A program made the translations under genes and the position numbers. A stretch of 58,387 bases of DNA. Origin: Stramenopiles sp. TOSAG23-6 (lineage: Eukaryota > Sar). This document shows positions 3,163 through 58,387 of this stretch, piece by piece. The number at the start of each line of letters is the position of its first letter. The first letter of the stretch is position 1. The stretch covers positions 1-58,387 of the forward strand of contig LT635918.1 of the NCBI GenBank assembly GCA_900128565.1, read 5' to 3'. The notes below the pieces were generated by a model. That model had not been told where the DNA came from and did no database searches. It was given only the letters and a program-made list of their open reading frames with translations.

Positions 3163-4394
3163 TTAATGTAGTGGGAGTAATGGCTCGGGTGGTTCTGGTG
3201 GAAATAAAGCATCTTCTCTATAAAATGATTTTTCATTTCCTCCGTTGTCCAAATTATTCAGAGGAAGGATAGGAAAGTCACTCGATAGTGGTGCTTTAAA
3301 AGCATTATGCCAATCAGTATTACCGGGTGTTTTTATTCGTTGCGAGTCATTGATAAAACCACTGAATCCTCTGATTGCTGATGAAGGATAATTCATCCAT
3401 GTAGGAAATTTTCCTGTTATTCTACCATTTTTCCTGCCATTTCTCCATCTACCAAAATTAGCTCCTGTCATCATTGATATGTATTGTGAAAAAATATGCC
3501 AAACTCAAAAAGTCTTCAAAACTCAATCAATACGAATTTGGTAGAAAAAAATATATATTTGAAATTAATGATGAAAATATACATATCATGTGCATCTAAA
3601 GAGCTTGGTGCCTGTTTTATAGGGAGCATGTTTTGTAGAATATAATTTGAGAAAGATCTAAGATTGCTACTTGTTTGTAAGGCAACAAATGAAGATCCCA
3701 CATTCGCCGCCACATTCTTGTTATCACCCGTCGTTTTTCTGTCTTTTACATTTTTTAGCTCTGAATGAAACTCAATATATGCTGATGGATTAAATGATGA
3801 TTTTTTTAATTGTGAGGGCACGGGGTGTAATGGATTGCGATAAAACCCATTTGGTTTGTACCCATGCATAATAAAAAGTGGCCCATTCGGGAGCAAAGGA
3901 GGGATTTTACGCACTGGCATTTGCTCTTCATCAATATGATGACGACCAGTATGTGGGTTATCTCCAAAAATAAAAGGCGGGGCGTGTGCTGGTACTGCTG
4001 CGGATAAACTTTCTGCTCCTTGACTACCCATATCTGTGTGTATATCAGGGAATCCGTTAGAACCACTAATACCTGGTTTGCCCCAACCTGCCATAGTTGA
4101 AAGACGATGTTTATTACCTGGGGTTGTTACAACAGGACTCCTCCATGGCGTATCCATACCTTGCCACGGTATAGACGCCCTACGAAGTTGATTTGGGCTC
4201 AAATCAACCTCTTCTACCATTGTTGTGACTGGAATGCCAATTGGATTTCCTGGAAGTGATCCATTTTCTGGGTTATAATTTGTAAATTTTATACTTTGAG
4301 TAAGTTTTGCAAAGAGTAAAATTATCACAAGTATCGATTTAGATTGAGAAAACATGGAAAGTAAGACTCTATATCTTCCATGAGAAGCTTTCAT
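3163..4394 (-). CDS. unknown secreted or membrane-anchored protein, two exons
   Basis: Two coding blocks on the minus strand (4394 to about 3582 and about 3471 to 3163) interrupted by a copy of the repeated intron family. Start is the ATG at 4392-4394; a second in-frame ATG 13 codons on begins a good signal sequence (MFSQSKSILVIILLFAKLTQS). The rest is rich in Pro, Gly, Asn and Ser with no recognised domain, followed in exon 2 by GANFGRWRNGRKNGR and an acidic, proline-ending tail (PPEPPEPLLPLH). The first block reads on into the intron as a run of aromatic residues before a stop, which marks the boundary. Joining at the ATG shared by both ends keeps the frame; canonical GT-AG choices near the ends do not. 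Its neighbour downstream is another secreted protein, but I infer no shared role. Confidence 0.6.
3472..3581 (-). repeat. introner-like intron, copy a (diverged)
   Basis: About 110 bp between the two exons of the unknown secreted protein. In gene sense it begins TGTATATTTTCATCATTAAT and ends CATATTTTTTCACAATACAT. Both ends match other copies in the window, but the central palindrome and CCTAAC core are degraded. The exact ends are uncertain; a 3-bp ATG repeat at both junctions gives an in-frame join. Confidence 0.65.
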
Positions 4395-4616
4395 TATAAA
4401 TACATCAATTAGAATATAACCAGTGGTAATTTATATCATGTAAAGCTGGGCCAAAGGATGCGATGATTTTTTGAAATATGAAGCGATATGAAGAGAACGA
4501 AAGGAGGATACGATTTGAATTGAAATTTTTTTGAAGCAAATAATTTCAAAAAAAACTCCGAAAAGGAAAAATCGGTATTCGTATTCTATTATTGGTTGAA
4601 ACGGTTACAAATTACT

Positions 4617-4756
4617 ACTTTGTTTCACTTTTACATACGTATAGTATCTACTCTCGCGTTTTCGTCAACATTACTTGGGTAAAGTTACTTTGTTTCACTT
4701 TTACCTACTTATAGCATCTACTCTCGCGTTTTCGTCAACATTACTTGGGTAAAGTT
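4617..4756. repeat. 70-bp tandem duplication in promoter region
   Basis: Two head-to-tail copies, 4617-4686 and 4687-4756, each starting ACTTTGTTTCACTTTTAC and ending GGGTAAAGTT. They differ at only a few positions (for example ATACGTATAGT against CTACTTATAGC). They lie about 100-240 bp upstream of the CFAP97-like start codon, inside the 461-bp divergent spacer 4395-4855 that separates it from the secreted-protein gene. I see nothing else in that spacer. Confidence 0.9.
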
Positions 4757-4855
4757 CCGATATTTATATTTATATCCCAGTGGAGATGAGAAAAGTATAA
4801 TTGAACATTCCATTCACATTTGTCGTTTGTAATCAAAACACCTACTTAAACTAAG

Positions 4856-7129: not shown

Positions 7130-7228
7130 TTTGTGATAACATGTTTTATTTAAAATTTAGAATCAGTACAACGAGTCTTTGTTCATTGTGTAATAAAAAT
7201 ACCTTCCACACTATAGTTTGAACCTATA

Positions 7229-10200
7229 TTATTTTTTACGTCGGTGCATTTTTCTTTGAATATTTTTACTACTCGGTAAAGTCAGTGATTTTCTGCTGGA
7301 GTTTTGATGCCGAGATTTAAAAGCTTGATCACCAGTTTGACTGTCACTACCTCTACTGTTTTTTTTCGAGTGATCAATACTTGGCAGAATCATTTCTGGG
7401 TGTACATTTGATGTGGTTGGTACTAATTTTCTACCATTACCTGTTGTTCCCATACTCGATTGGCTCAAATATTTGTTATTGCGTTTTTCACTCAATACAA
7501 AATATTTAATTTTGGAACCACATTTGCGACAGGTAAACCCACCAGGGTTCCGGAAGCCACATGATGTGCACAATATGTACTTGTAAGGCCCAACCATTTT
7601 AAGTAAATCTAGTGCTAGCCCAGCATTATTGCTCCCTCCATCTGCCATCTCAAGTAATTCATGAAGACCTTGAGATAATAGTCTTCGACAATTATCAGAA
7701 TTATTGGAACACATACCAATTAAACCCATAATAGCAGCTTCACTAATATCGTTATTTTCGTGTCGCAGTAACACTAGCATCTTCTTTGTAGCGCCGCCAT
7801 TCCCAACACGATCCTGGTTTCCTTTGTTGTCGTATGTAATATTGCGTAATGCCCATAGTGCGCGGAGGATGACGTCTTGGTGGTCATAATCATCAAGCAT
7901 TTCAATTAGGGAATTAATTCCTTCAAACTCCATAACTTCATCTTGAATTTTCCGACCGACAGCCCAAGATTCTTTGGCCAACTCTTCAGCCGCAAAACTC
8001 TGCATTGAATGGTCGTCTCCTCTTAACATGTCAACCAGTCCAGGTACAGTGCCAAACTGACTCTTTGCATGTCCCAATTCCTTGGCTTGTACCAAATCAG
8101 CCAAAATATTCAATGTATTCGAAACCACTTTACGAACTTCTAAATTATTCGAGCCATTGAGTTTTACAACTGCTTCAATGGCTCCAGCATCAATCATTTC
8201 CTTTTTTAAGCCATCATGAACTGCCATATTTCCGATTGCCCATACTGCATACTGTTGAACTCTAGAGTCAGTATGTCGACACAAAGCCGTTAACATTTCA
8301 CATCCATCATGTTTAGCTATGAATATGGCATTTGCGTCGTTGTGTGCCGCAGTGCCAAGGGCTCGACAAATATTTGCAAGAACCATGGGATTGTCACTCG
8401 AACACAACTTCATCAATATTCGAAGTCCTCCTCCTTCAGAATTACCAGCAATCAACATACGCCGTCGGTTTCCTTCGTGATAATACATTATATTTGCCAA
8501 TAACATTAGAGCATTTTCTTGAACACTCTGATTTATACATTGACATACTTCAATAATTTTACCTGTGAACTTTCCAATTTCATCTTGTGCATCTGCTGAC
8601 CAGGCAAGATTTGACAATGCCCAGAGAGCATTTGCTGCAACATCTGGGTGTTCCTCGTGGCAATCTACAAGGAGTAGTAACGCATGTACACCGCCAGCTT
8701 TAATTAAGTTCTTTCTGTGTTCATCTAAAAGTGCGAGATTGCCCATTATTAGTCCAACTTGTAGCTGCACACTAGGGTATTGTGAAGCACACAAAAGTAC
8801 AAGTGATTCAACGCCTATATCATGGATACATTTACTGAGTTCTTGACTCCGCAAGCATGTCGCATTTGCCAATAACTCTGCTGTATTTGATTGGACTTCA
8901 ATCGAAGATATTGCCAACTCTCCATGACATAGACTTAGCGCTGTTTGAATACCACCGTGCTCATGAAATATTGCTCTATTGTTATCGTTGTTAAGTAACA
9001 TATTTACCAATGCTGCTGTCACAGTTGCTAAAACATCAATTTCTTTTGAATGGACCAAAATCTTTGTGAGATTAGCAACAGCTCCGCATTTACCCATTTT
9101 CTTTATATTTGTTGGATTATTGTATGCCATATTAGCCAAAGTAGCTGCAACAGAACTCTGTACTTCTTCTTGGGATTCAATGTCTAGAAGATGTGTCATA
9201 TGCTGCAAGAAATCATCAAGTTTAAGTAATCTATGACGATTTGCGGCTTGCAAGGATACAATTGCTAAAATTTCACATGCAAATTTTTGGGTTTCTTTAT
9301 CTGTCGACTTACTCAAGTCTACCAAAATTTGCAGGGATCCTGAGGTTGAACCAATATGTTCTTGGTTTGAAAAGTTTGAATCATTCACAATATCTGTACC
9401 TTCTATTTTTTCTGGTGTATTCCCAATGGATAATAATCGGGCCATAATTGTTTTTCGTCCAATTGCTCGGCCAGCTTGTGCTGCCGCTGCCCAAAGTCCA
9501 CGTTCTTCTTTTACATCTGCAAGTCTATCCTGCCATTCCATAGCATCCTTTCGAAGGTCATCCTCAACCTTATTTGCGATTCGATTTGTCCACGAAATCC
9601 ACATTTCACGCCCAATATGATTTACAACTCGAGTATCACATGTACCATTCCACATCATGCGCCCTATAGATCGAACTGCCATTCGCATTATTTCAATTCT
9701 TGGAGACTTGCTAAGCGCAAGCAAGATTTCAATAGCACAGTTATGCCGAAGTTTATCATTGAGCAAAGGTGACCTGCCTGACATGCGGTCAATTGCTTCA
9801 CAGAAAAATCGGAACAGCTCATCGACATCTGTAATAATAGTTCTGGCAGTTTCGTCGCGTCGCCATGACTCCCGTAGTAGAGCATCTCTCTTACCCGCCC
9901 ATTCTTGGGCAGATTGTTTTGCCCTTTCTTCCATGTCTGATACTCGTGCTTCCAGAACACTGATCTTATTTTCAAGAGCAGTAATCCACATTCTACGATT
10001 TTGACTTTCATTTGATTTGGCGTTTAGTCTCTGTCTAGTCTCTATATAACTTTGAGCTTGCTTCTTGTTTTTTTCCATAGTATTATTACTAAGTTCTGTG
10101 TATGTATTGCGCAATTGTCTCATATCTTCTTTCATGGCATACACCCATGTCTTTCGTTGGGCTGCAAGTTCTTGCAATCCTAATATTCTATTCTCCAATC

Positions 10201-15904: not shown

Positions 15905-16001
15905 CAACTGAGATTATAGACGAAATTACTAACTACTAGTGCGTATATTATATTCCATTCGTACTAGCAGACGAAAAAAAAAAAAACGGTCCGTTGTTAT
16001 C

Positions 16002-16015
16002 TAGGGTTAGGGTTT
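16002..16015 (+). repeat. telomere-like repeat between two genes
   Basis: TAGGGTTAGGGTTT lies in the 177-bp spacer between the CFAP57 stop and the start of the coiled-coil gene, about 100 bp upstream of the latter. Confidence 0.75.
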
Positions 16016-16081
16016 GAAAAAGGAGTAATACAAATGATACTTCAGACACAATGTCATGAAATGCAGAATAATTTATTTTCC

Positions 16082-20009: not shown

Positions 20010-21965
20010 TCATTTATTCATCCAAGCTGGGAGTGTGGCACCCCTACCTCTACCTCTAGCACTATTGGCTGGAGGTGGAAATGCAGAGTTCGGGTTACCT
20101 CTAGCATTATTGACTGGAGGTGGAAATGCAGAGTTATGGTCTTGTCTAGTTTGATGAGGTACTGCATTATGACCATTATAGTATTGATGTTGAGATCTTT
20201 GCTGTGGAGGTTTATAATACTCTGCTGGAGGCGAACGCGTAAGGTCTTTTTTCATTTGTGTATTATTTGGTTTATAATACTCTGCTGGAGGCGAACCTGG
20301 AATGTCTTTTTTCACTTGTGTATTTTGGTAATACGGTTTCGTGCCACTGCCCATATTATTATTAGAGGGAGCCACTGAAGGAACTTTTGAAATATCTTTC
20401 AAAATACCCTTCAAAAACAAATCTTCAGGGTAATAATATACAGCCACCTTCTTGTTATTAAAAGTACGATCAGCAACAGCTGTTTTAGCTCCAATTGCCC
20501 CATTCACAGCATTAAAATGAACATAAACCATGCCAACACCATTCTCTTCTAATTTATTTTGAGAGTTTGGCCTTGGTATTGAAATCGTTAAAACGCTTCC
20601 AAACTTTTCCATTTCTTCACGAATATCCTCAACTATGTCTACATATTCTTCTTCATCCATTAATTCCTTTTTCTCAACCATATTAGTCATTTGCAATACT
20701 TTGGTAGGTAAAGTTTCATCAACGTCTGTTTCAGGAAAAACAGACTCAATTGTTGGCACTTGCGAAGTTGAAGCACCATATTTTCGCCGAACTCCATCAA
20801 TTCCAATTGCACATAGCTCTTGCCAATTACTGTTCATTCTACCATCATTTTGATAATTCCTCGGACGATTAATTCGTAGTCGGCTATTTAAAAGTGGTAT
20901 GCCTGTCATATGCATGGCATTATCAGTTTCAATGACGCTTCTAAATTCAACAAAAGCAAAACGTTTCTGAAGACGTGAAGCGATAACAGGTAATGGATGA
21001 ACATGATTATTATCTTCCACAGTAAGCCCTGACTGTTTCATTGCAGCAGAAAGAAATTGACTTAATTGATCTGAAGTAACAACGTCGGGGACATTACCGA
21101 CATATAACTCACGACCTGATCTACAAGAGTACCACTTAGCATCACCATAAGTTGTTTTCTTCGCTTTTGCTGCTTCCATTTCAGATGCACCCAGACCAAT
21201 AACTTTTCCCTTCAATGATGGATTCTCCTGCACACGGAGTGCCATAAGTTCCTCCCATGTAGTATTAAGAGTCTCAGGACCAACATATTGCTTTGGTCGG
21301 CAAACAGTAATAATTCTACCACGTAAGACAATTCCGTTCAGATTTAGCGAGTTTGAAGCGTCTTCGACAGTACGAAATTCAATAAAAGCAAATTTATCAC
21401 ACAACCGAGTATTTAGTATGGAATTCACATCTGGATCTACCCGAAGTCCACCTTGTTTTATAGCCTCAGTCATGTATTCTTCAAGCTCAATAGGTTCGAG
21501 GCCATCCGTTGGTACGTTACCAATATAAACTTCTCGGTTAACTTTTGTGGAAGGATCAATATATGATTTTAGACCAACACCAGCTCTATTACTTGTCCCA
21601 CAACTACCATAAGACAAACTGGCGTAGAATGCAGTATCTTCAGTGGGACCGTCAGTAAAGTTGGACTTTTTACGCCTCTTCCTACTCGTCTGTTTACGAG
21701 GGCGAGAGGTAGATCGTGAACGACGATCACGGCGAGCGTGACTTGAATATTTTCCACGAGAGTTCGAACGAGAACGACGCGACTCACGAGGTCGCTTTTC
21801 ACGATGCCTTGGTCTATCGCGAGACAATGATCGGCGTCGACTACGTGAACTAAACCGTTCCTCAACCCGCTTGCCGCTCCTGCTACTGGGCCGATCTGGT
21901 TTTTTTGAAGTTTTTGAAGAATCTATCTTTTCATTTCTAGAAGTCTCAGCTAAAACGGATGGCAT
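20010..21965 (-). CDS. U2AF large-subunit-like splicing factor (RS domain, three RRMs)
   Basis: 651 aa; I start at the ATG at 21963-21965 (MPSVLAETSRNEK) because the slightly longer open frame begins with TTG. Residues about 25-105 are an Arg/Ser domain (RSRRRSLSRDRPRHREKR). RRM1 at about 145-235 (REVYIGNVPTDGL ... KFAFIEFRTVEDA), RRM2 at about 285-380 (RELYVGNVPDVVT ... RFAFVEFRSV) and a C-terminal UHM-like RRM at about 430-540 (VLQMTNMVEKKELMDEEEY). This is the U2AF65/Mud2 order; the large subunit binds the polypyrimidine tract upstream of the 3' splice site. A Pro/Gly/Asn tail with two near-identical segments around PPAEYYKP and two SAFPPP segments follows the UHM, longer than in most relatives. 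It is of special interest in a window whose introns appear to lack a normal AG acceptor. Single exon; divergent from the YIPF gene. Confidence 0.85.
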   Translation of the reverse strand: MPSVLAETSRNEKIDSSKTSKKPDRPSSRSGKRVEERFSSRSRRRSLSRDRPRHREKRPRESRRSRSNSRGKYSSHARRDRRSRSTSRPRKQTSRKRRKKSNFTDGPTEDTAFYASLSYGSCGTSNRAGVGLKSYIDPSTKVNREVYIGNVPTDGLEPIELEEYMTEAIKQGGLRVDPDVNSILNTRLCDKFAFIEFRTVEDASNSLNLNGIVLRGRIITVCRPKQYVGPETLNTTWEELMALRVQENPSLKGKVIGLGASEMEAAKAKKTTYGDAKWYSCRSGRELYVGNVPDVVTSDQLSQFLSAAMKQSGLTVEDNNHVHPLPVIASRLQKRFAFVEFRSVIETDNAMHMTGIPLLNSRLRINRPRNYQNDGRMNSNWQELCAIGIDGVRRKYGASTSQVPTIESVFPETDVDETLPTKVLQMTNMVEKKELMDEEEYVDIVEDIREEMEKFGSVLTISIPRPNSQNKLEENGVGMVYVHFNAVNGAIGAKTAVADRTFNNKKVAVYYYPEDLFLKGILKDISKVPSVAPSNNNMGSGTKPYYQNTQVKKDIPGSPPAEYYKPNNTQMKKDLTRSPPAEYYKPPQQRSQHQYYNGHNAVPHQTRQDHNSAFPPPVNNARGNPNSAFPPPANSARGRGRGATLPAWMNK

Positions 21966-22338
21966 CGTGTACAACTATTTGGCAAATATGTATGATGCTA
22001 TTCAATGACGGTCTTGATAAATTAAAAATAGTGGTAGCTACTTCTTTCTGAACAGAGGAGGATACACACTCACGGGTACCGAATACGAAGTACCGTCGTG
22101 TGCGAGCCGAGCTGCCCTTCAAATGGCATCCTGCTGAATTTCAATTCAGAATTTTGAAAACCAAAGAAAATTTTTCCCCGATATTTCGTGTTTGGTGTTT
22201 GACAGCATCAGATATGACTTCATGAAATCATGACTAACCAGTTTTTTATGTTCTTCTGTGTTAAACTCTTTGATTTTCAAGACTCTGTGTGTATTTTTCA
22301 AGGAGCTTCAAACATTCAGGGTATGCAACCGACTGAAA
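21966..22338. other. divergent promoter region
   Basis: 373 bp between the divergent U2AF-like and YIPF start codons. A more GC-rich patch at about 22050-22140 contains GGTACC-GAATACGAA-GTACCG, a short interrupted inverted repeat. No gene is supported; upstream GTG-initiated extension of the YIPF frame (22258) is unlikely to be used. Confidence 0.5.
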
Positions 22339-24470: not shown

Positions 24471-24493
24471 CGTAAATGAAAGTCAATGTAAAA

Positions 24494-36282: not shown

Positions 36283-37336
36283 TTATTTTCCAGAAGGTAC
36301 AGCTCTAATCTTATCAATTGGACAAGTGCCATTTGATAATAACCACGGATCAATGCACGCAGCGTGAAATTGATGAAAACATGTGTTGTGAAAAAATATT
36401 TTAGAAAAAAATCGTTAGGTACGTAATTTCGTATGAAAACAAAAATGAAATGCATCATGAAAATATACATGGAAGCCTCCGGACTTCTTCGCCAGGAAAC
36501 ATCTCTCCAAGACAAATAGCGCATTCGTCATTTTTGTCATTTTTGTCTTTTATTTTAGGTGTATCGACAGTTAGATCACACACTTTGCCACAACTACCAT
36601 CCTTGTTTCGTTTTCTACTTTTGGGCAGCATTGCTAATTCGCTCTTAGTTAAACGATTTTTATTCACTATGTTGTCATCAAGTCTACTTAAACGAAAAAA
36701 ATCTTCCTCTGATAATTCTCGACTCATTAATGATAATTGTGAGACTATATGTGATCGCAGTCCATTAAGGAAATTTTGATGAGTTCGGTTAGGTCTGCTT
36801 ACATGCGGATGAGGTCGAGTGTTATTTCTACTCGAATTATCGATATAGTCTTCCAAGTCTTCATCAGATTCGTCAGAATTAAAAAACACACCTAAACCTG
36901 CTGATCTTGAGCGTGACTCAAGTCTAATCCTTTGGAGGCGACTCAAACTTCTACCAGCATTGGCCTGAAGGATTCTATTTCTTTGCTCTTGTCTGGATCT
37001 TTCATGCTCTTGCCTTTGTAGTGAACGTGCCATGGCAGCATCAGCATCAAGTTGTTCTTCCAAGGCATTTCTATTACTATTTCTATTCTGCACAGAAGAA
37101 CGCCGATTCAATCTTGGACTACGACGAAGTGGGCTTGAAGATGGCGGAAGCAAGATCACATCTGGTGAGGAATTCGTGCGACGTCGCTTTTTTGGTCTAC
37201 GGACTGCAACATGTTGTTGGTTTGACGATGAAGACGTCGACACAGAGTTACTCGTAGAACGCGTACGCCGTCGACGTCGATTAGATTCTTTGGGAGAATC
37301 ACCACTCAAATCTATCACACTGTCAGCATTACTCAT
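36283..37336 (-). CDS. RING-H2 E3 ubiquitin ligase with SUMO-interaction-like motifs, two exons
   Basis: Exon 1 runs 37336 to 36467 (290 codons from ATG at 37334-37336) and exon 2 from 36378 to the TAA at 36283-36285 (31 aa). Joined, the C-terminus is a complete RING-H2: CAICLGEMFPGEEVRRLPC, then FHQFHAACIDPW, then CPID, giving C-x2-C-x14-C-x1-H-x2-H-x2-C-x10-C-x2-C. The split falls right after the third cysteine. The N-terminal 240 residues are disordered, Arg/Ser-rich, with three hydrophobic-acidic stretches of the SUMO-binding type: VIDLSGDSP at the start, DVILLPPSSSP, and CDLTVDTP before the RING. This arrangement recalls SUMO-targeted ubiquitin ligases (RNF4/RNF111 type); that role is inferred. 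Divergent from the DNMT5-type gene with 356 bp between the starts. Confidence 0.85.
36379..36466 (-). repeat. introner-like intron, copy b, with 5-bp direct repeat CATGT
   Basis: 88 bp. In gene sense exon 1 ends CTTCCATGT, the insert runs ATATTTTCATGATGC ... CATACGAAATTACGTACC, TAACGATTTTTTT ... ATATTTTTTCACAACA, and the second CATGT precedes TTTCATCAATTTCAC. Keeping one CATGT restores the RING ligands exactly. No AG occurs on the sense strand from 36471 down to 36312, so the acceptor cannot be AG. Confidence 0.85.
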
Positions 37337-37692: not shown

Positions 37693-40600
37693 ATGATCAA
37701 ATTATATTCAGATTCTCGTTCTGGTGTAGAATGCATAGATAAAGGTGAGTTTGCATTATCGAAGCTCAAAAAGTTGTGTGAAAAAGTGCGTATGAAAGTG
37801 GATAATGACTGGTACGTTCTTGTTATGTCACACCCGATTACGAAAGATGAATCTGAAGCTGAATCTCAACAAACAGTATTACCTAATGATTCTTCAAAAT
37901 GGATAGAAGGTGATCACTTAGATGTTGATTTCAATGGCACTTTTTATGGTGCTAAAGTTCTGAAAACGGTGCCCACGAAACTTTGGGTGAAATATCTCGA
38001 TGGATCTAGAGAAGGAATCGTTTGGGAAGATGTACCGGATCGTGTAGAAAAACGTAGATTAGAGGTATCCTACCATTGTGGCTCTAAAACGTTTAACAGT
38101 ATTAGAGATGTAATGCAAGAATTATCGAAAAGAAAATCTTCCATTCACAAGGAAAATTCAAGTGATAGTTCTAATTCAAGTAAGAGCTCAGCAAAAAACG
38201 CAACCAAAAAAAAAGCAAGAAAAATACAAAGTAAAACGAACGCAAATGGTAAGAAGAAATCAAAAGCATTTGACAAGAAACAGTCAAATTTATTCTCATT
38301 TTTTGCATCTCCAACAAATCAATCGAAATTAACAGAGTCAGAGATGAATAAAGATGTTGATGATGACGAGCAATTCGGAGGAAATAATAAAGATGTTGAT
38401 GATGACGAGCAATTCGGAGGAAATAAGAGAAAAAGGCGAAAAATTAATTATTCAGAGGTAATCTCATTATCCTCAGACGAAGAAGTAGTTTCAGAAAAAG
38501 TAGTTTCAGAAGAATCTGAATTTGAAGAGGTTGAGGAAATAATTTCTGAAGAATCTGAATTTGAAGAGTTGGAGGAAATAATTTCTGAGGAGGAGGAAAA
38601 TGATGACTTCGAAGAAGATTCGGAATTCGGAGAGAGAGTTCCTAAAAAGAGAAGGAAACAAAGTAATAAAAATAAAAACTTGTCGAAAAATAAAAAAGGA
38701 AAAACCATGAAAACAAAGTCAACGAATGAAATTTCGGATAAATATGTTCAAGTGGATTCGAATGACTTATTTGAACTATCAAAAAAACGTTTGAAGAAAG
38801 AAAAGGATGCATTACGAAAACGAAAAAATGCTCGTAAGGCAAATGATCCTCTAAATCAACGTGGAAACAAAGCCGATTCTGCCATTCAAGACGGAGGAGA
38901 GTATTTCGATCCAGCAACATTACAAGGCGATATGTCGTCTCTTCCAGTTGAAGTTTTAAGACGACAATTTGTTACACTTTGGCCTCTCCTTTCGAAAGCT
39001 CAAAAGAATGGTGATTTTGTATTTGAATATGGAAAAAGCAAAAATTTATTCGAAGGTATCACTGTGCAGACTGCATGTAGTGGTACTGATGGCCCAGTCA
39101 TTGCACTACAGATATTCAAAGAAATTGCTACCGAACTCCGAAAGCGTCAAGAGACACTTTGTGGGGAACATTGGAAATTTGATTATCAACACGTTATGAG
39201 TTGTGAAATTGTTCCTTTCAAACAAGCTTATCTTGTTCGAAATTTTGAGGACGTCAAAGTGTTTGCTGATATCAAAGAAATTGCAAAGAGTGAAGCTAAA
39301 ACTGCATTTGGTGGTACTGTTTCTGTTCCCAAGGGGAATTTTTTCATGGCTGGTACATATATGTTTTATTTTTTTTCAATTTCGAGTTTTATTTTTTTTC
39401 AATTTCGAATTTATTTTTTTATAAAAATTTTTTACCTAACAAATTTTAGGGTTTTTTTTTTGAAATATTTTTCCAAAATACATCGTGTAAAGATTTTTCG
39501 ACTTTAAGAACTTCTGGTAAGTTAGATATGCTTGAAAGTAAAGGTATTAGTGGTGAAACATTTTTTGCTGCGTGTGAATTTATTTTTAGTCAGGCTCAAA
39601 ACTGGATAATATTTGAAAATGTTGATGGTGCACCATGGGAACAGATGGAACAGTACATCACTGGTCGACTTCCATTGTGGAGTCTTTATGATAAAGCAAA
39701 AAGTGGAAAAAAATGCGGAGATCTTGAGAGTACACAAAATAAATCGAAAGAGAATTCACAAATTATGTTTACTTTAAGCCAAGACGGTCGATGGGAAACA
39801 ACTCATGTTCCTCCAAAGAACGGTTGTCGACTTGGTGGTATATTATATGCAATTGATCGTGGATACACTCAACGTGGTCATACCGCTGATGGTTCGCCTA
39901 TTAAGAAACCTCAACGAAGGCTTGTTGAAAAGGAAAAGGAAATTGAAGTTGGGACAACGATGACTATCGAACAATTAGCATCTCACTTAGATTGTGAAAT
40001 GACATTAGATACATTTGTTTTTGAAGGACCAAAAGATTTATTAACTGGAGAAATAGTTTTTTATAGATCGCAAGTCGTGAAATGTGATACAAAAGAATAT
40101 GGTTTACCACAAGTTCGTAGAAGAAAATATATGTTTGTATATAGATTAGATTGGGTAGCTGACATACAAGATGATTTAGATGAAGCAGGAATAGATTTAG
40201 GAGAACTTTTTGAAGAATTAGTAGAGTGCATGCAAGAACCCGTCAATTATGCTCTTACAGCATATGTACCAGATGATACCGATCCTAAAGTTCGTCGTAT
40301 GAGAGATAGACTACGTGGTCCAGTTGGGCGTAAAACTGCCCGAGATGAATTGCGTAATAATTCTTATTATTATAATCTTACAGCAAACGTGAAGCACGGT
40401 GTTAAAATGCGAAATGATTGTAATTTGATTGAACGTTGTGATAAAGATTTTTCAACAAAGCCAATTACGGGATGGGGCGAAAGAGGTAAATCAAAAAGTA
40501 TCATGTATAATTTATGGCCTTGTATGTGGGATACTGTAATGACTCAAAGACGTCGAGATATGATTGATATTTTTGCGATGAATCAATCTGCTCCTGTTGT

Positions 40601-43600: not shown

Positions 43601-45119
43601 CATTACAGCCCTTGAAAAAAAATTGAAAGGGTCCTCTTTTATTACGTATTTATCGAACTTATCGAAAAAATCCAAATTTGGTGAACTTCCGATACAACTT
43701 CCGAAAGTATCTGGTTTCAAAGCTGTAGATACTCTCAAGGGTCGTACTTACGTTGATCATCCTGCCAATCCATATGGTGGACATGGTGCCCAAGGCGTCC
43801 GTGGTCAGAATAAACGTAACGATGCTGCATATTTCACTTCAAAATATTGGGAATCTCTTTCTAAATTACGTAAAATTAAATTTTCCGAGGACACTAAAGG
43901 AATTCCATTGGAATGGTTTTCTTGGACACGTTTAGTATTTGACGAGTGTCACGAAGCAACTTGCCCTCCTGAACTAGAAGCTGATTTCGATGAAGATGAA
44001 GGTTCTACAAAGATTCGTGGGAAATCCAAGGAAGCTAAAGCTGCTAAACTAAAAGCTATGTCAAAAGAAAAGAAATCAGAAAAGAGACGTAAAGTTAAAA
44101 ATGTCACACAACGAGCTCTTGCGGCACGTGAACTTCTAGGACTTGCAGCGGAAGGAGATGCAGAACGTCCACTTAGGGCTCGTGGTGGAGTATGGGGTTT
44201 GACTGGTACACCAATGCTTTCGTCGGAAGATCGAGTTATTGAGCTTGCGTCAATGTTTCGAACATATTGTATTGGTCAAGCGAAACATTGGCGTCGTTCA
44301 GAACGAGCTAGCCGTCGTGATCTTTTCTTACAACAACTTGATTCTGAAGGATCCATTGATTATGCAATTGCAAGAAGAGAACACGCCCAAGAATTTATAA
44401 ATTTCGCAGTCCAACGAAATCGTGCAACTGAATTTAATGGTGAAAAAGTAGAGAAAATTTGCGAAGTATCTATGTCAGCTGAAACATCACAAAAATTTCA
44501 TGAATTATCACCACAATCTGCTTTTGCAATTGGTATGAAAACAGATGAAGTGGTATGTAAGAATTTCAATGAAATTGAGATACTTCGCGAGATAGCTCCA
44601 GCGCGCTCAATAAAGGTAGCAGAGATTGTTCGAAAGATTCATGTCGAAGATCCAGTCGGTAAGGTTGTCGTCTTTGCACCAGATGCAGATGAAGCCTTTA
44701 ATGCAGTTTGCAAAGCATTATCTGACGCTCCAGGTGGAATGAGCTTCTTTAACGATGAAACTCCTGCATCACAGAGACGTGAAATTATCTCCTCTTTTGC
44801 ATCTGTAGATCAGCTCGAAAGTGATCTTAAAAATCCACGTGTACTTGTTTTACCATTTTCTCATGCTGCTGGACATAATTTTCAGTATGTAAGTTGTAAT
44901 ATGATTCTTGTTGCACCTCTTTGGCTCGGTGATGATGGGGTAAGAGCAGTAGCAAATGAACAACAAGCGATTGGTCGAATATTTCGTTCTGGACAACTTA
45001 AGAAATGTACAATATATCGAGTACTTCTGTGTGGACCAAATGGGGAGAAAACAATCGACCATTCTCTTTATGGGGTTAATACTGATGCATCTAACATTGA
45101 GGCTGCGACTAGTTGTTGA
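37693..45119 (+). CDS. DNMT5: DNMT5-type cytosine-5 DNA methyltransferase with RING-like and SNF2 ATPase domains
   Basis: 2433 aa in two exons (37693-39358 and 39484-45119). Start chosen at the first ATG of the frame. The N-terminus has a Tudor/chromo-like segment (residues about 70-120, GDHLDVDFNGTFYGAKVL) and an acidic, Lys-rich stretch with a duplicated KDVDDDEQFGGN unit. Methyltransferase: motif I TACSGTDGP at about 458, motif IV TSCKDFS at about 556 with the catalytic Cys, motif VI ENVDGAPW at about 600, motif VIII/IX region QVRRRKYMF at about 762, motif X AGNAMSLTV at about 1011. A Cys-rich RING/PHD-like module lies at about 1097-1141 (CSNCNFTFCRSC). SNF2: Walker A DVMGGGKTAT near 1823, DECHE near 2040, IGRIFRSGQ near 2384. 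This is the DNMT5 order; in fungi and some algae it is an ATP-dependent CG maintenance methyltransferase. All key residues are present. Confidence 0.93.
39359..39483 (+). repeat. introner-like intron, copy c, with 5-bp direct repeat TACAT
   Basis: 125 bp. The exon reads GCTGGTACAT, the insert starts ATATGTTTTATTTTTTTTC, includes TTTACCTAACAAATTTTAGG, and ends GAAATATTTTTCCAAAATACAT before CGTGTAAAGATTTT. Keeping one TACAT gives Ala-Gly-Thr-Ser-Cys-Lys-Asp-Phe-Ser, methyltransferase motif IV. The last AG of the insert (39449) is about 30 bp from its end and in the wrong phase. A T-rich unit with TTTTTTTTCAATTTCGA is duplicated in the 5' half. The palindrome is lost in this copy. Confidence 0.8.
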
Positions 45120-45219: not shown

Positions 45220-48200
45220 TCATAGAAATGACAATAGTGATTTCCCTGTTGCTCCAAGTGCACTCCGTCGCAGTGCTTCTCCTGGATAAGAATTGAACCA
45301 CCCCCCACTACCTTCAGATGTATCAGTTTCATTGAAGCCTGGTGCGCGAACTTGGTTATGAATAGACACAATTTCAAATGCAGGATTAAGCAACTCTAAG
45401 CCAGCACATTGCAAACGTCTAACCATTACACCATCTCCCCGAAGCATTCCTAATTGAATATCTCCCGAGTTTTCAAGTACAGATTTGCAACCAGCTCCAT
45501 CACGTCGATGTGTGTACTGTAATGGATATCCATCTAATCCAATAAACTCCGTTGAATTAATATCTTGTGGTTGAGGAATTTCAAATGTTTTCAAAAGTTT
45601 TGGAGGTAATGGAGGAAATACAACCCACGCATCCTGGGAATCAACACGTGGCCATAAAATTTTTCTGCCTTCATAATTAAGTTCCCAATGTACAAGTGAT
45701 AAAGCAGTATTTTTTAGACGATGACGCGGAATTTTCGATAACTTTGACAAAGAAAGATCAAAATAAATATCTGCATTAATCAGAATAGCCGCTTGATTTT
45801 TTAGATGTTCCTCTGCATACCGTAAGGCATCACCAAATGATATGTGTTTTCCAATCGGAACGTGGACCAATTTATCGAGACCTCGATATTTTCTACTAAA
45901 AGAGTGGAATTCTTCAATGTTGATGTCTTTAGTAGTGTTGCCTTCGCTTAAGACATGAATATTATATATAAATGGATTTAAAGTGTTATTGCGCAATGCT
46001 TCGTCTAACTCTCTTTGTCTACTTTTTCGTTTAGGGTTATAATATTGTACTATTAAATGCACCTCAAGACAGTTTGGCTGATCACTATGAATGACATCAT
46101 CTCGACAAACATGGTGTACATCAGTAGAGGTGATTTCATTGTCTTCATTCATTCTGCTTTGCACTAGCGTTTTTTCCATAGTTTCCCTAATATTTTGACG
46201 TCGTTTATAAATGTCACGAAATAACTGATCAATAGCGGCATCTCTGTTTTCGAGAAAATCTGGTACATTTTCTTCAACATTATTTGCCGAATTATGCAAC
46301 ACATATTCATTATTATCTCTTGTATAGTTAAAGGATTGACCATATAAAAATGGAAGAATAGAATCGGTTTGCAAACTACTCCAACAATGACTCATTGCAG
46401 ACAAAAGACCCGACCACTGATTTTGCAATGTATAAATCATAGTTGCCAATGAACCATCACCATTACTGTGAAGTAGTTTTGCACCTCTACTATTTCCAAA
46501 AAAGTTAGAATCATTTTGTATCTCATTTAGTAAAATCAGATCTATAGATGGAGCCCTCCACTTCACCAAAGCAAGATGGATTACTATCATAAACTCTTTT
46601 TCATTAAAAGCTTCAAGGCTTACACCCATATATTGTGAAAAATATTCCAAATTAAAAAACTTGTTAGGCACGAAACCTCTACATTAAGTTGGGTACAAAA
46701 AAAAATCTGAAATTAGTACTGAAAACAAAAAAATCAAAAGGTAGTACTGAAAACGAACATTAACCTTGAGAAAGCTTTCACATTTTGTAATCCGAGATCT
46801 GAGTTAGATGCAATCGATAAAAGTAACCTAGCAATAAAAAAACTTATCGATTCGTCCTTTGGTTCACCATCTAAATTCCATTCANTNGNTNCNANCTGTT
46901 TTTTTTTNTATGAANATTTNCATCACAAAAATCTCTCCCATGACATTGATCTAATTTAGTATCGTTGTTGTCTTCATATTCTTCATATTCGACTTGTGCA
47001 TATATTGCACTCAAATACCGTTTCACCAAAAGATCACTACAAAGATCAACTCTTTCAATAAACGGAGTTCCTGTTTCATATACTATATTACTTGTTTTAT
47101 TGTCTATCTCATAGTCAGTCAAAGCAGATAAATGACCACCATTTGTATATAACCAGAGCGCTTCTTCGTGTGTAACAATTGACTCAGAAATACGACGCTG
47201 TGCCATTAAATTCCATCCAATTAGACTTAATAGTTCAGCAAGTTGAAGTCTTACTCCATCAACAACATCAGTTATATTATGCAGATATTCAAACCCACCG
47301 TTAATAAACTTAGCAGCTCGAGTTTGATATTTTTTTAATTTCTTAATAATTGTTCCATAAGTAACATTGTATGAATTTGATAATGATTTTGAAATGTTGG
47401 GTAGTCTATCCAACAAAATGGATAAGCACATTCGAGCATCATTGTATCTACGATGAGTGGAGAGGATTGAAGACATTTGAACAATTCGACGAATTTGTGA
47501 TCCAACATTTTCTAATTCTTCTTCGATGTTTTTTTTCTTTTTTGAATTCAATATTATGTTCGAACGATCAATCTCTCGTCGTATAAACTCATTTGATAGT
47601 TTTGGAACATTTGGCAATTTTCCATGTGAATGAACTATTCCAGACCAACTGATTTCAGATTCACTTCCCCATCCTAGTGTATAATATTTCTGTATCGATG
47701 CTGCTAGTGATTCAGCATCTACACTAAATGTTACATTATTTGATATTTTCGTTTTGTTTTCTCTTAAATCAATTGGTTTCATACTTTTAATACCATCTAA
47801 ACAGACTAGACACTTACCTCTAGAAATTCCAGGGGACCCACAAGTATTGTGAAAAAATATCTCAAAACAAAATCGTTAGGTACGAAATTTCGTATGAAAA
47901 AACAATTTAAATTAGAAATTCATATAAAACATACTCCATAAACCTTCAGCGTCAACAAACGAAGACAACCATGGATCAATTAGCATATACAATGATTCAT
48001 ATTTTTTATGTGGCCCATGAGCATTCGATGTAATGTAACTCATCCAAAATTCATTTGGATGAATATTTGTATGCTTGGGTGGTTTATGAATTTTACCCGT
48101 GGAACTTTTAAATGTTTCTGTTGGAGTATTTTCTGTATTTATATAATTTACAAGCCATGAACGAAATTTATGCCATGATGAAACAGTTGGCGAAAATCCT

Positions 48201-49692
48201 CTAAAACTTACTCGTTTGTTGAATTGTGTTCCTTGAGGAGTCGCCATCCACAAAACTTTATTTTTTTCAAAATATTCTTTCTTTGTATTTGCATTTATAA
48301 TTTGATGCTTTTCATCTACAGATTTTGCAACATTTGCACGAAGTTTTTTCCACTTTGAGTTATCTAAAGTCCAATCTTCAGGATTTTCGTCATTTAACAA
48401 ACCAGCGATATGAGTGCGCGAATAGTTGACACCTAATCGATATAACTCTGTGGTAGATATACATATATTGTGAAAAAATATATTTTTTTATAAAATTTGT
48501 TAGGTACGAAATTTCGTACGAAAAAAAAACTAAATTTGAAAAAAAATAAAACATCCGCTTACCTTCTACAAAATCTGGACGTGCTCCATTTGGAAGTAAC
48601 CCTAAGAAACCAAAAACATGAGGAAGTATTGTGAAAAAATATATTACCTTTGAAATTTGTTATTTACAAAATTTTGTACCAAAAAAAAATAAATTCAAAG
48701 TTGATTGAAATACAAGAGCAAAAAAAATATTAGGTACAAAATTTCGTATGAAAAAAAAATCGAAATTGAGATGAATGATGAAAACAAACATTACCACCAT
48801 ATGCGTAATGTTCCGCTATGAGCCATTGTGCAAAATGTGGCGAGACTCTCATTTCACTACTCAAAAATATCATCGGCCAACTTGAAGTGTCAGGTTGATT
48901 GAAAATAGTCAATTGATTATCAACCCATTCAAGGACTTCTGTTGCTGATAAACGTGTCGTGTCAGTACTGAGTGGAACTTTTCGAATATATTTTTCTCCC
49001 CATATCCATTTTATGTTTTGAGTATTTCGTATAAATTTTTTTGTACCCACATCAGATATTGAGTTTATTTCATATATTGTAACACATAAGTGCACAGCAG
49101 GAATGTTACCATACTCTGCATTGTTCAGTGAAACAAGTAGGCTATTTAAATCTTCCCAGTTGTAGTCAGTAATAATTATGTGAATTAATAGTCCAATAGA
49201 TGGATATTGATTGACCAAAGGGAGTTGAGCTGATAGAGGCCAATATGAAAATTCAACTGTTTGTGATTTTTGAATATTCCCATACACTGCCATTACAGTA
49301 AACAAAAAAAAACCTCCCGTGGAAGGTAGTTCAAAAGGCAAAGTCTTTTTATAGTCCATGATATCAGTACTATTAGGTGACTCCGTGATATCGGTATTAG
49401 GTGAAAATGGTGTTGGTAAACAGTCTACATAGAGCGATGTTGCGTGATATACATCTCCATCGGCACTATTCACGTTAATTTGCCGCAGACGTACACAAAG
49501 ATTTTCTATTTCAACGTCGCTGTCCCCAGAAAAATGTCTTCTTACTTTTGCTTTTACAAGGACGGACGGAGAAAAGAGTAAGGACAAATTTGATGGACTC
49601 CGTATTTCTACAGATTCAGAAATACTTAAGGTTGCACAGTTCTTTACATGAATAAACACTATCAATAAAGTAACTAAATATATGTAACGCAT
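45220..49692 (-). CDS. secretory-pathway glycosyltransferase-like protein, five exons
   Basis: Begins at the ATG at 49690-49692 with a signal peptide or signal anchor (MRYIYLVTLLIVFIHVKNC). Exons, by my joins: 49692-48786, 48613-48560, 48459 to about 47934, about 47842-46758, 46626-45220. Exon 1 resembles a GT-A-type glycosyltransferase core (LLIHIIITDYNWEDLNSLLVSL ... SWPMIFLSSEMRVSPHF); exons 1-2 joined read YAYGGNVFGFLGLLPNGARPDF. The last exon holds a second glycosyltransferase-like domain: LEVHLIVQYYNP, AAILINADIYFDLSLSKL (DxD-like), DSQDAWVVFPPLP and DIQLGMLRGDGVMVRRLQCAGLELLNPAFEIVSIHNQ. I recall similar stand-alone domains in algal and bacterial glycosyltransferases but cannot name the family or substrate. 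Four introns belong to the repeated family. A patch of ambiguous bases (46885-46920) shifts the frame within exon 4. Confidence 0.65.
46627..46757 (-). repeat. introner-like intron, copy g (glycosyltransferase intron 4)
   Basis: About 131 bp. Sense 5' end TTCGTTTTCAGTACTACC, centre GTTTCGTGCCTAACAAG, 3' end TTGGAATATTTTTCACAATAT. A 3-bp ATG repeat at both junctions gives TCA AGG TTA ATG GGT GTA in frame. Here a canonical choice (AG|GTTAATG ... GTGTAAG|C) is also in frame, so this copy alone does not discriminate. Confidence 0.75.
46885..46920. other. cluster of ambiguous bases
   Basis: Nine N interspersed with called bases and a run of T, inside exon 4 of the glycosyltransferase-like gene. 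The frame before it (CHGRDFCD) and after it (WNLDGEPKDES) differ, so the consensus is wrong in length or two alleles were merged. Confidence 0.9.
47843..47933 (-). repeat. introner-like intron, copy f (glycosyltransferase intron 3)
   Basis: Sense: exon ...GGATTATGGAGTA, insert TGTTTTATATGAATTTC ... CATACGAAATTTCGTACCTAACGATTTTG ... GATATTTTTTCACAATA, then CTTGTGGGTCCCC. Cutting at the shared TA keeps the frame. An alternative 6-bp repeat AGTATG at 47930-47935 and 47780-47785 is also in phase and would make the intron 150 bp; canonical GT-AG options also exist. Ends are therefore uncertain. Confidence 0.7.
48460..48559 (-). repeat. introner-like intron, copy e (glycosyltransferase intron 2)
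   Basis: About 100 bp. Sense 5' end GTAAGCGGATGTTTTATTTT, core TTTCGTACGAAATTTCGTAC (contains a 16-bp perfect palindrome), CTAACAAATTTTATAAAAAA, 3' end TATATTTTTTCACAATATAT. The 3-bp repeat GTA gives GTA GAA GGT ATA TCT ACC in frame; GT-AG (GAAG|GTAAGC ... CACAG|AG) is also in frame. Confidence 0.8.
48614..48785 (-). repeat. introner-like intron, copy d, double copy (glycosyltransferase intron 1)
   Basis: 172 bp containing two copies of the core: CATACGAAATTTTGTACCTAAT, then about 55 bp on GGTACAAAATTTTGTAAATAAC, and a single 3' end TATATTTTTTCACAATAC. A 6-bp repeat ATGTTT flanks it in the same codon phase; keeping one copy gives GGT AAT GTT TTT GGT TTC. A canonical GTAATG ... CTTAG join is also in frame but would remove Phe-Gly-Phe-Leu coding sequence. 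Confidence 0.75.
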
Positions 49693-50007
49693 TGTTTAAA
49701 GATATACTGAAACTCTGCCGAAATAAAAATAATCCTCTTTTTACCTCAGTCCACTAAAACTTTATAAAAAGAGGCTAAAAACTTGGTTTGAATTCATTCA
49801 ACATTTGAACATCAAATATGCAAAAAACAAAAAATTTAGCCGCAGGTTTGTCCGCCGACCGGTCAATTTTGACGTTTCGGTTTCACTTTTCCATAAAAAG
49901 GATACATTGCCTTTGCAACAACAACGAGAGATCTTGACAAACGTAAATCAGATTCAAGTAAGCTCTTTTCCAAATATCATTTTGACATAAATCTCAAATA
50001 GTGCATT
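49693..50007. other. divergent promoter region
   Basis: 315 bp between the start of the glycosyltransferase-like gene (minus) and the TPR protein gene (plus). AT-rich; no gene, repeat or RNA recognised. Confidence 0.5.
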
Positions 50008-53409: not shown

Positions 53410-53661
53410 AAAATAAAAAGTTACATGATGTAAATTCTAATTCTAATTTTAAAGACTTAAAAAAAAAATCTTCAATTGAATCCTCTATTTAAACTTTCAA
53501 ATACAAATTAGTTGACTATTTTTCATAAATTCTTACACTGTCATAACAGAAATTTGACATCAAAATTGACCGACATCCGTATCGCCAAGACGGCTACTTC
53601 TCTCTATTGTATTGTAAAATAAAAGCATAAAAGAAAGTGTTTTGTGGTTTCGCCGATAAGA

Positions 53662-54408: not shown

Positions 54409-54433
54409 TAATAAACTATTTTTTCTTTTGCGT

Positions 54434-56084: not shown

Positions 56085-56426
56085 ATTAGATTAAAGGGTA
56101 TGTATGCATGGATACTGCGTTTGATTGCCGAGTATTATTATACATCACAAAATAGCATATCTGCATTGACCTAACCATTATTATGATATAATTGGACTAC
56201 TTGGAGTGGGTACTCTCCAGGGGTAGGCCGTAGGGTATCAGAGATGTCAAATGTGACCTTTGCGCTGCGTGGCAGTTACGGTGCTTTTTTGGGTATCATT
56301 TGGCTACTATATATACGAAGTTTGCACTAAGAAAGGTTTTACATAGGTTGCTTTTTAGATGTCATCAAGGAATATGATTTATACAATTAGATTCCTAAAC
56401 CTGAAAACCAAAATTAATCCTATATA
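56085..56426. other. divergent promoter region
   Basis: 342 bp between the starts of the Ala-rich EF-hand gene (minus) and the small EF-hand-like gene (plus). A more GC-rich part lies at about 56205-56290. No gene or known element recognised. Confidence 0.5.
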
Positions 56427-57236
56427 ATGTCAGCTGAAGCCACTTCAAAGATATTTTCGGGTCTCGAAGGCAGCGATGGACTTGTGAGTGTATCAGAGTT
56501 TATTATTAAAGTTTTGCGAGATGAAGATACTTCATTAAAGCTAGGGATTTCCCCTCCTGTACCACCGCAAAGGAATGCATGTGAAAAGCTAATGAAGATT
56601 TTTGAACTTCTAGACAAAACGATGTCTGATAGGATTGACTTTTCTGATTTTCAGCACTTTTTAGCGATACTTTTACATATTAACGTTGAAATCCTTGACG
56701 ATACACATGACAAAGTAGATAGGAAAAGCATTTCTAAACCGAACAACTTACCACCTATACTCCCTGAAAATACTCCATCAAAGAAATCTGTTGTATCACC
56801 TACATCATCGATCGACGTTGAGAAACCAAATTCTGAAGCAAAATCTACTAGTTTTGAAGAGCAAAGCATCCATGATTTATCACTGGATAGCTCAAGAAAT
56901 ACTACACAAACTCCAATACCTATCCTATTTGACACAAATCAAAGTAGCCTGTATCACTCCCTATTGAGAAATGTAAAGCCGAAGATTAGAACTTGTAAAA
57001 ACCAATGGAATTCTCGACAACGGCGTCATTTATATGATGAACAGAGAAAAAAATTTCTGAAATCTAGTATTACAAAAAAAAAAAAACAGAACAGAAAACA
57101 GAAAAATAATAAAAGTCCTTCTAAAAAAATAGCTCGTGATCGTAGTGTAAGTTCTCAATCAAATATTGTAAGGCCATCGAAATCGAAGAAGGCGAAAAAG
57201 AAGATAAAAAAGAAACGAATAAATAAAAGAATTTGA
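56427..57236 (+). CDS. small EF-hand-like protein with basic tail
   Basis: 269 aa from ATG 56427, single exon. Residues 1-90 look like a degenerate EF-hand pair: FSGLEGSDGLVSVSEFIIKVL and IFELLDKTMSDRIDFSDFQHFLAILL; the second loop lacks most of the acidic ligands, so calcium binding is doubtful. Residues 90-190 are disordered and Pro/Ser-rich. The last 60 residues are almost entirely Lys, Arg, Asn and Ser (KKKKQNRKQKNNKSPSKK). A PVPPQRNACEKLMKIF stretch links the two loops. I do not recognise an orthologue. Divergent from another EF-hand gene and convergent with the transporter gene downstream (54 bp apart). Confidence 0.65.
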   Translation: MSAEATSKIFSGLEGSDGLVSVSEFIIKVLRDEDTSLKLGISPPVPPQRNACEKLMKIFELLDKTMSDRIDFSDFQHFLAILLHINVEILDDTHDKVDRKSISKPNNLPPILPENTPSKKSVVSPTSSIDVEKPNSEAKSTSFEEQSIHDLSLDSSRNTTQTPIPILFDTNQSSLYHSLLRNVKPKIRTCKNQWNSRQRRHLYDEQRKKFLKSSITKKKKQNRKQKNNKSPSKKIARDRSVSSQSNIVRPSKSKKAKKKIKKKRINKRI

Positions 57237-57290
57237 TTTACTTTTAATTTGAACTATACATACAATGACATGTCAATGTCATCAAAATAA

Positions 57291-58387
57291 TCATACTGCA
57301 TCAATGTGAAATATAACTTTCCCCAAAAATGAAGATCCAGAAAATATACAAGTGAAAAATCCCACAACAAAGAGAATAAATGAAAACAATAAAACCTTAC
57401 TTTTTTTGCGTCGTCCTAATTCTTCTATTAACTCCACAGTACATGAATGGTTACGAAATCTCTGTGGTTCAATCATTGAAGATTGTTTAGGTTCAGTATG
57501 AGCCCATTGCCAGACAATCTTTGACGGTATAAAGAATATAACAATCATACCAATACTCATTGCTGTAAGTTCAAATAAAATGTCAAGGTTTGGAATGATA
57601 AATGCAAATAATAAAGATGTTGTCCAAAATAGTATTGCGGAAACATAAAAGAATGCTGTCGGGATTTCTTCTAAAATTGCTGCTTTAGTTTCATCCATTT
57701 CTGCTTCCTCAGCTTCAAGTAGTGCAGCAGTTTGCATAGCAACAGCTGTGTTTGGACTCAGTGGACTCGTCATTGCTTCTACGTCATTATTACTACTTTG
57801 TAAAAGATTGTCATTAACAGGATATACTCCATACATTGGATCATGATCCATTCCATTTGCTGCAACCATGTAGTGTAAAAAGATATTTTAAATTCGAAAT
57901 TCGTTAGGTACAAACTTTGGTACGAAAAAAAAAACTTCATGATGGAAACGTACAAAGGCATTGTTTCAGTTTTCTTATAGAAAAAAGGCTTGAGAAGAGA
58001 AAATAAAGCAGAACGCGCCGGGAAATGATTGATCGGAAATTGTGAAATCATAACTACAACTAGAGCTATCCGAGCTACATCAAGTGGCCAAATACTGTAA
58101 AAAAATATTTGAAAAAAAATCGTTAGGTACAAAATTTCGTATGATAAAACAAAATAAATTCGAAATCGAAAAAAAATAAAACAAACAACCTCCAATATTT
58201 CCATAGCCAGTTGGAAAAGAGTTTTTTAAAATATTCGTTTTTGACGTGGAACCGAATTCGATGTAACCCAAAGATGCTACTAAAGCATATAACATCACTT
58301 GAAATATGATAGAATAAATAATTACTCTGTCCATGTATTTTGGAAAAATATTTCAAAAAAAATCGTTAGGTACAAAATTTCGTACGA
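57291..58387 (-). CDS. amino-acid transporter of the AAAP/SLC38 type (3' part; runs off the window)
   Basis: C-terminal part of a membrane transporter; the 5' end lies beyond 58387. Exons: about 58332-58194, 58090-57950 and 57869-57291. Joined, it reads LYALVASLGYIEFG, then ILKNSFPTGYGNIWPLDVARIA, then ISQFPINHFPARSALFSLL. The GYxxFG, the DVARIAL helix and the FPINHFPARSAL motif are hallmarks of the AAAP family (SLC38, AVT), which moves neutral amino acids across the plasma or vacuolar membrane. A hydrophilic insert of about 60 residues (MVAANGMDHDPMYG ... EEAEMDETKAA) follows, then TM helices FFYVSAILFWTTSLLFAFII, LFELTAMSIGMIVIFFI and LLFSFILFVVGFFTCIF. Three introns of the repeated family split it. 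Substrate is not deducible. Confidence 0.85.
57870..57949 (-). repeat. introner-like intron, copy h, flanked by TAC
   Basis: 80 bp, the shortest complete copy. Sense: exon CCTTTGTAC, insert GTTTCCATCATGAAGTTTTT, core TCGTACCAAAGTTTGTACC and TAACGAATTTCGAATTT, end AATATCTTTTTACACTAC, exon ATGGTTGCAGC. Keeping one TAC gives CCT TTG TAC ATG GTT GCA. The nearest AG acceptor (TTGCAG) is out of phase. Confidence 0.8.
58091..58193 (-). repeat. introner-like intron, copy i, flanked by TATT
   Basis: 103 bp. Sense: exon GGAAATATT, insert GGAGGTTGTTTGTTTTATTT ... ATCATACGAAATTTTGTACC, TAACGATTTTTTTTC, AAATATTTTTTTACAG, then TATTTGGCCACTTGATG. Keeping one TATT gives Gly-Asn-Ile-Trp-Pro-Leu-Asp-Val-Ala-Arg, the conserved transporter helix. 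A GT-AG join (TTGTTT|GTTTTA ... ACAG|TATT) is in frame but inserts four extra residues. Confidence 0.8.
58336..58387 (-). repeat. introner-like intron, copy j (cut by window edge)
   Basis: The 3' 52 bp of a further copy: sense TCGTACGAAATTTTGTACC, TAACGATTTTTTTTG, AAATATTTTTCCAAAATA, then exon CATGGACAGAG. The ending is nearly the same as that of the DNMT5 copy. The 5' end is outside the window. Confidence 0.8.

Follow-up and report, generated by a model that had tools for sequence, protein, structure and literature searches.

The AG that closes the intron is among the most conserved signals of eukaryotes. In the introner survey of Gozashti et al., 2022 (PMC9860276; this and the other papers cited are represented here by passages of their text), many similar introns were described in unrelated genes, enriched in genes and carrying a target-site duplication and short inverted ends; the duplication can provide a splice site. 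For Fritillaria borealis, about 95% of introns are given as not GT/AG, some of them ending in AU or AC, and these ends have been attributed to a U2 spliceosome whose U2AF is divergent (Soo et al., 2026, PMC13326754). Introners, and non-canonical introners as well, are already known (PMC9860276, PMC7789003, PMC12621601, PMC13326754). The family considered here was found in contig LT635918.1 of Stramenopiles sp. TOSAG23-6 (assembly GCA_900128565.1), whose full 58,387 nucleotides are called the window below; it is contig C376 in a draft genome of 8.03 Mb and 408 contigs. We consider it likely, from the DNA itself, that the inserts in its genes are introner-type introns which entered as DNA, duplicating 2 bp, and which a U2-type spliceosome removes, tolerating a 3' end other than AG.

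The inserts and their family

Ten inserts of one repeat family lie in the window, nine complete and one truncated by the window end; five gene models host them all, and every one is in gene sense. Intron 1 (3479..3582, minus strand, 104 nt, GTATAT...AATACAT) separates two open reading frames (ORFs) that its excision joins in frame. Intron 2 (36381..36468, minus strand, 88 nt, GTATAT...AACACAT) is within a RING-H2 domain; with this insert, near 36379, in place the RING match is partial and sub-threshold, and its removal gives RRLPC followed by FHQFHAACIDPWL, with all 42 positions of the zf-RING_2 profile matched by 42 residues free of gaps (E 1.6e-13). Intron 3 (39359..39483, plus strand, 125 nt, ATATGT...AATACAT, start set by hand) interrupts an SNF2-like gene. 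Four more share one gene on the minus strand: intron 4 (46628..46758, 131 nt, GTTCGT...AATATAT), locally in frame by hand and with assembly Ns close by, and introns 5 (47842..47934, 93 nt, GTATGT...AATACTT), 6 (48463..48556, 94 nt, GGATGT...AATATAT) and 7 (48624..48789, 166 nt, GTTTGT...AATACTT, compound), whose three joins lie inside an ORF lengthened by excision. An amino-acid transporter gene, also on the minus strand, holds introns 8 (57868..57953, 86 nt, GTACGT...CTACAT) and 9 (58090..58186, 97 nt, GTTTGT...GTATTT), with an Aa_trans match (E 1.4e-16) spanning the joins, and intron 10 (58333..58387), the 3' part of a copy cut by the window end. Excision makes the longest ORF grow in five of five gene models, from 304 to 387, 311 to 337, 1889 to 2465 (the SNF2-like gene), 487 to 823 (the four-intron gene) and 198 to 285 codons. 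Among 8000 candidates no homolog of the four-intron gene reached E 0.001, the phage collection had nothing similar to it, and no Rfam family matched within the window at its gathering score.

With up to 3 mismatches allowed, the pattern AATATTTTTTCACAATAC matches ten times in the window, against 0.36 expected from shuffles; nine of the matches are inserts and one (13093, plus strand) is a chance match in coding sequence, the insert at 46627 not being captured by this pattern. The pattern CCTAACGATTTTTTT, at the same tolerance, gives 15 matches against 5.9. The pattern matches and the lengthened ORFs bear out what the initial annotation had proposed, ten inserts of one family within five genes and all in gene sense; the copy near 48614 is a compound with two cores.

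Across the genome, the 3' signature TTTYCAMAATACAT is present 938 times and its backward control twice, while the exact 15-mer CCTAACGATTTTTTT occurs 399 times (196 + 203) and its control not at all; these counts include duplicated contigs, and distinct copies are fewer. A family profile built from 31 copies was run on the window and on 17 of 20 regions selected for carrying the 15-mer on their contigs (three C14 regions were omitted as duplicates of C13), and further DNA comprised 6 kb with a known copy and 30 kb from contig starts, picked regardless of copies. At E 1e-3 there are 125 profile matches, or 113 after the duplicate loci L009 and L014 are dropped. The repeat measures about 85-125 nt and consists of GTAYGTTTT, a T-rich part, a palindromic core, CCTAAC, a second T-rich part and CAMAATAC. 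Pairwise identity among 72 full-length nonredundant copies reaches 96% in unrelated flanks and has a median of 75%, values which indicate that the family spans a range of ages and does not stem from a single burst. A single dispersed family as the source of the window's introns, as first supposed, is upheld; the family may also be mobile and recent. Several contigs, that of the window included, terminate inside copies, as assembly-breaking repeats would. One copy, at about 8930-9070 of locus L007 (minus strand), has the telomere-like sequence CCCTAACCCTAACCC within it. Outside this genome, matches to family patterns in two viral contigs and, for another pattern, in one bacterial metagenome-assembled genome proved to be chance matches in coding sequence, and a second family pattern had no match among viral contigs.

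When the copies are excised, 71 of the 77 complete ones (one copy at a locus edge was excluded from this count) are found within a sense ORF of 100 codons or more, one within an antisense ORF and five in neither. The bias of 71 to 1 has a p of 3e-20, and the lone antisense copy has 106 sense codons against 114 antisense. Placement in genes exceeds chance modestly, with 72 of 77 copies against 84% of random positions in such ORFs (p 0.013). A codon-usage test, 100 of whose 105 calls on held-out genes were correct, was applied to all 113 matches, partial ones included: both flanks are sense in 61 and antisense in none, one flank is called antisense in 13, and both are non-coding in four. The initial annotation had regarded numerous antisense or intergenic copies as evidence against introners. 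Antisense copies are not numerous; intergenic ones, covered in part, appear rare at most.

Boundaries and the 3' end

The best frame left of GTATG was compared with the best frame right of AATACNT in 63 complete copies. When GTAYGT...AATACNT is removed, the flanking frames agree in 56 of them, and in 37 of the 40 with unambiguous flanks; copy lengths modulo 3 are nearly even (20/23/20), so the frame is not preserved by copy length. Joins are residue-exact in SETD3-like, RING-H2, kinase and kinesin genes. The SETD3-like gene has three junctions with no adjacent gap when set against ten aligned homologs, picked from 393, and one junction in a diaminopropionate ammonia-lyase is exact against homologs.

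The 2 bp to the left of GTATG equal the 2 bp to the right of AATAC in 44 of 57 copies, a number that none of 100000 permutations reaches. The duplicated dinucleotide is mostly AT, sometimes GT or TT, and looks like an insertion-site duplication. Which of its two copies stays in the exon can be read where the two are unequal and the protein is conserved, as in the motifs HRD of kinases and DSLGG of kinesins. HRD requires the left GT of the kinase copy and DSLGG the left TT of the kinesin copy; in the SETD3-like gene the left dinucleotide yields CAT, for the H present in ten of ten homologs, whereas CAG (Q) would result from the right; and in a TPP-enzyme gene the left is kept, the right giving a TGA stop (by hand). 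In these four copies, then, the left dinucleotide is exonic, at least in its first base, as judged from the encoded proteins.

With the left dinucleotide kept, the right one closes the intron, and in the 57 copies it is AT 45 times, TT five, GT four, AG twice and AC once. Genome-wide the same preference is seen, with 938 ends in ACAT against 35 in ACAG (control for the latter, 1). At the other end is the donor GTAYGT, with its G in 98% and its T in 91% of the 57 copies, and the GT cut has been chosen because GT is the donor consensus. The introns appear to run GTAYGT...CCTAAC...AATACAT, the cut following the final AT, which stands in place of AG. The introner interpretation of the initial annotation is sustained in family, genic placement and gene sense; it had overlooked the AG-less 3' end and the 2-bp site repeat.

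Circularity was avoided by a repeat-independent test, in which split Pfam matches of kinesins and kinases were read (C23:1619-2821 and C12 are among those left unread). Sixteen introns defined by domains were resolved, 15 of them with no AG end and one GT-AG. The 15 non-AG ends, all in frame by hand, comprise 12 in ACAT and one each in ATAT, AAAT and AACT; one of these 15 gaps contains two introners head to tail. In one intron of C262 the interior is divergent and the GTATGT and TTTCACAATACAT ends are kept, as if these ends served as signals and did not reflect shared descent alone. Two other splits were set apart: that of C86, tried as an intron, is a continuous frame instead, and the split kinase match of C361 has Ns and a frame break. 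As to the forms that copies take, the head-to-tail pair stands in a kinesin gene (L033:2521-2701), its second member beginning at the AT that closes the first, and a similar pair is possible at L017 near 4968. An introner-like intron at L048 (G000:C94:195-430) contains long runs of poly-A and finishes in CATACAAACT, the kinase domain still being joined in frame.

Mechanism and alternatives

The favoured course of events is that the repeat inserts into coding DNA at NT, mostly AT, and duplicates 2 bp; a U2-type spliceosome would then remove the copies from the RNA. Its donor would be GTAYGT and its branch site CCTAAC, the duplicated dinucleotide, mostly AT, would serve as the 3' end, and this excision would restore the old reading frame exactly. 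The 2-bp duplication and perhaps the short inverted ends suggest spread by DNA transposition; the termini, GTAT and ATAC, are inverted over 4 bp only and overlap the splice signals. In the 69 of 72 copies listed, a CTAA branch-like motif precedes the end by 32-56 nt, a motif from which branching is predicted. The genome encodes PRP8 with an intact PROCN domain (E 8.6e-231) in an open frame of 2021 codons. The 3' end may be recognised by an altered U2AF or through an extended motif; U2AF would be the first suspect for reading AT in place of AG, since in Fritillaria a divergent U2AF is reported to recognise non-canonical 3' ends (PMC13326754) and the window encodes the best U2AF65-like match of the genome. 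A wider proposal, that nearly the whole intron complement comes from one introner superfamily, that the U2 spliceosome, with its usual donor and branch site retained, reads the site after AATACAT as its normal 3' site, supplied by the 2-bp duplication, and that the 5' and 3' rules have become uncoupled, is in our estimate slightly favoured; we would hold it more firmly if the cut were not ambiguous by one base.

That ambiguity is among several observations which weigh against the course of events just described. Both dinucleotides contain the same T in three of the four tests, and GT...AT is there indistinguishable from TG...CA; the SETD3-like copy fixes the cut directly before the donor, yet it is a copy ending in AG. 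The automatic rule puts seven of the 63 joins out of frame (five differ by two and two by one), at least two of them through ties between frames. Three extra residues lie next to the join in an actin-like gene and five that in PAN2, and in a PHO4-like gene (L019:5917-6020) the join is out of frame and the downstream part does not resemble PHO4. A canonical GT...TATAG intron interrupts a kinase gene at L047 (G000:C275:2258-2371), on a contig that may be of the same organism as the rest of the assembly. The family as sole source of introns, claimed in the initial annotation for the window, holds there; elsewhere in the assembly this one of 16 domain-defined introns is canonical. Models of the U1 and U2 small nuclear RNAs had no match, their controls being equally silent, and U2AF1 was not found among ten CCCH zinc-finger matches, two of which were read.

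The alternatives differ in the agent of removal or in the place of the ends. Structure-mediated, non-spliceosomal excision of the kind proposed for the nonconventional introns of euglenids, in which GUAU and AUAC ends pair and the RNA is cut and ligated without U1, would account for the common terminal complementarity GTAT...ATAC (ATGTAT/ATACAT with the flanking AT) and for the palindromic core of the repeat. The ends, however, resemble splice signals (GTAYGT), and their pairing is not maintained: where position 4 is C, as in 16 copies, the compensating G is absent from every one, which makes linear signals read by a U2-type spliceosome likelier than excision driven by structure. The core pairs weakly above shuffled arms, and as a conserved stem it was set aside, 734 of 904 cells being paired against a shuffled-arm mean of 723, with eight of 500 arm shuffles reaching the observed value. 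This explanation is improbable in our view, if the most serious of the four. Excision from DNA between the 2-bp repeats, one being left behind as with the internal eliminated sequences of ciliates, fits a short direct repeat and the exact restoration of one copy; we regard it as quite unlikely, the sense orientation of 71 of 72 assigned copies and the donor- and branch-like motifs at fixed places being purposeless under it, and the assembled DNA still containing the copies.

The two remaining alternatives keep the spliceosome and move the ends. Were these ordinary GT-AG introns with the true acceptor AG downstream of the repeat, single copies might show such an AG in frame, as that at 48614 may (to TTTCTTAG, by hand), but a downstream AG is excluded where joins are exact to the residue, as in the SETD3-like, RING, kinase and kinesin genes, and an agreement of 56 of 63 frames at a fixed boundary would not result; the chance of this explanation is very small. 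U12-type AT-AC introns come to mind because many copies read AT...AC if the boundary is moved two bases to the left. Retention of the left dinucleotide in the four unequal copies excludes that shift, the branch-like A lies 32-56 nt from the end, a distance that to our knowledge is shorter in U12 introns, and the donor lacks ATCCTT, which we take to be the U12 consensus, so that this type seems scarcely credible. Splicing by a U2-type spliceosome at a non-AG 3' end is preferred over all four.

Host genome, neighbouring genes and described systems

The gene content of the window is eukaryotic and includes a dynein light intermediate chain, a CFAP57-like WD40 protein, SNF2, Ras and a Copia polymerase; the intergenic share is about 11% by eye, too little for the window alone to bear out the initial annotation's statement that no copy lies between genes. 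The EukProt entry GSMAST32 is 93% identical to the CFAP57-like protein over 100% of the query, and the host is probably a MAST-3 stramenopile, the GSMAST32 label being taken as that of a MAST-3 single-cell genome as in PMC5778133. Duplicate stretches, inverted or near-identical, on contigs C2, C37, C120, C372 and C13/C14 suggest that the assembly was made from amplified single-cell DNA, chimeras included; C13 and C14 resemble duplicate contigs rather than alleles. A U2AF65-like protein with RRM and UHM domains, a candidate 3' splice-site factor, is encoded at 20010..21974 (minus strand) in an uninterrupted 654-codon frame with no intron; it is the genome's best TIGR01642 match (96.9 bits, under the family cut-off) and matches the RRM1 and UHM chains of U2AF65. 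A Copia-type element with an RVT_2 polymerase occupies a single long frame at 27268-32883 (minus strand). This is one of two 5.6-kb frames; the other, at 39450-45119, belongs as second exon to the SNF2-like gene and so to a gene with an intron, contrary to the initial annotation, which listed 5.6 kb among the frames of intronless genes.

In the open-licence PMC literature searched, preprints excluded, and in the passages of PMC5778133 used here, neither introners nor GT-AT introns were seen described for MAST-3. A nearly uniform AT acceptor combined with a canonical donor and a branch-like site is, as far as we know, new. Should the reading proposed here be correct, hundreds of similar copies would be natural test cases for finding the spliceosomal component that reads the 3' end, and it could be asked whether the spread of an element can drive change in splicing rules; surveys of introners and gene-finding programs built to expect AG would, this suggests, overlook such families.

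Introner elements as surveyed share with the present family insertion into non-homologous genes, a target-site duplication and perhaps the short inverted ends, but their splice sites are GY/AG, whereas the 3' end here is mostly AT, and their duplication is 3-9 bp, against 2 bp here (PMC9860276). Amoebophrya (Farhat et al., 2021, PMC7789003) is, like the present host, a marine protist, and has repeated introns with direct repeats in which GT-AG is mostly broken; in the text available no clear splice dinucleotide is described at either end, unlike the uniform GTAYGT donor and the uniform 3' departure here. Hemistasiid diplonemids and euglenids (PMC12621601) have ends capable of pairing, as here, with direct repeats in the euglenids and a proposed origin from elements like miniature inverted-repeat transposable elements; those introns are described as having no conserved GT and strong end pairing, against a conserved donor and uncompensated pairing in this family. 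In Fritillaria borealis both ends are diverse, the host is an animal and U2AF is duplicated (PMC13326754), whereas a uniform AATACAT end is seen here in a protist. If the wider proposal is true, a mobile element has rewritten the rule for the end of the intron in this stramenopile lineage, with the 3' side changed and the 5' side not, unlike the case described for Amoebophrya, the diplonemids or Fritillaria.

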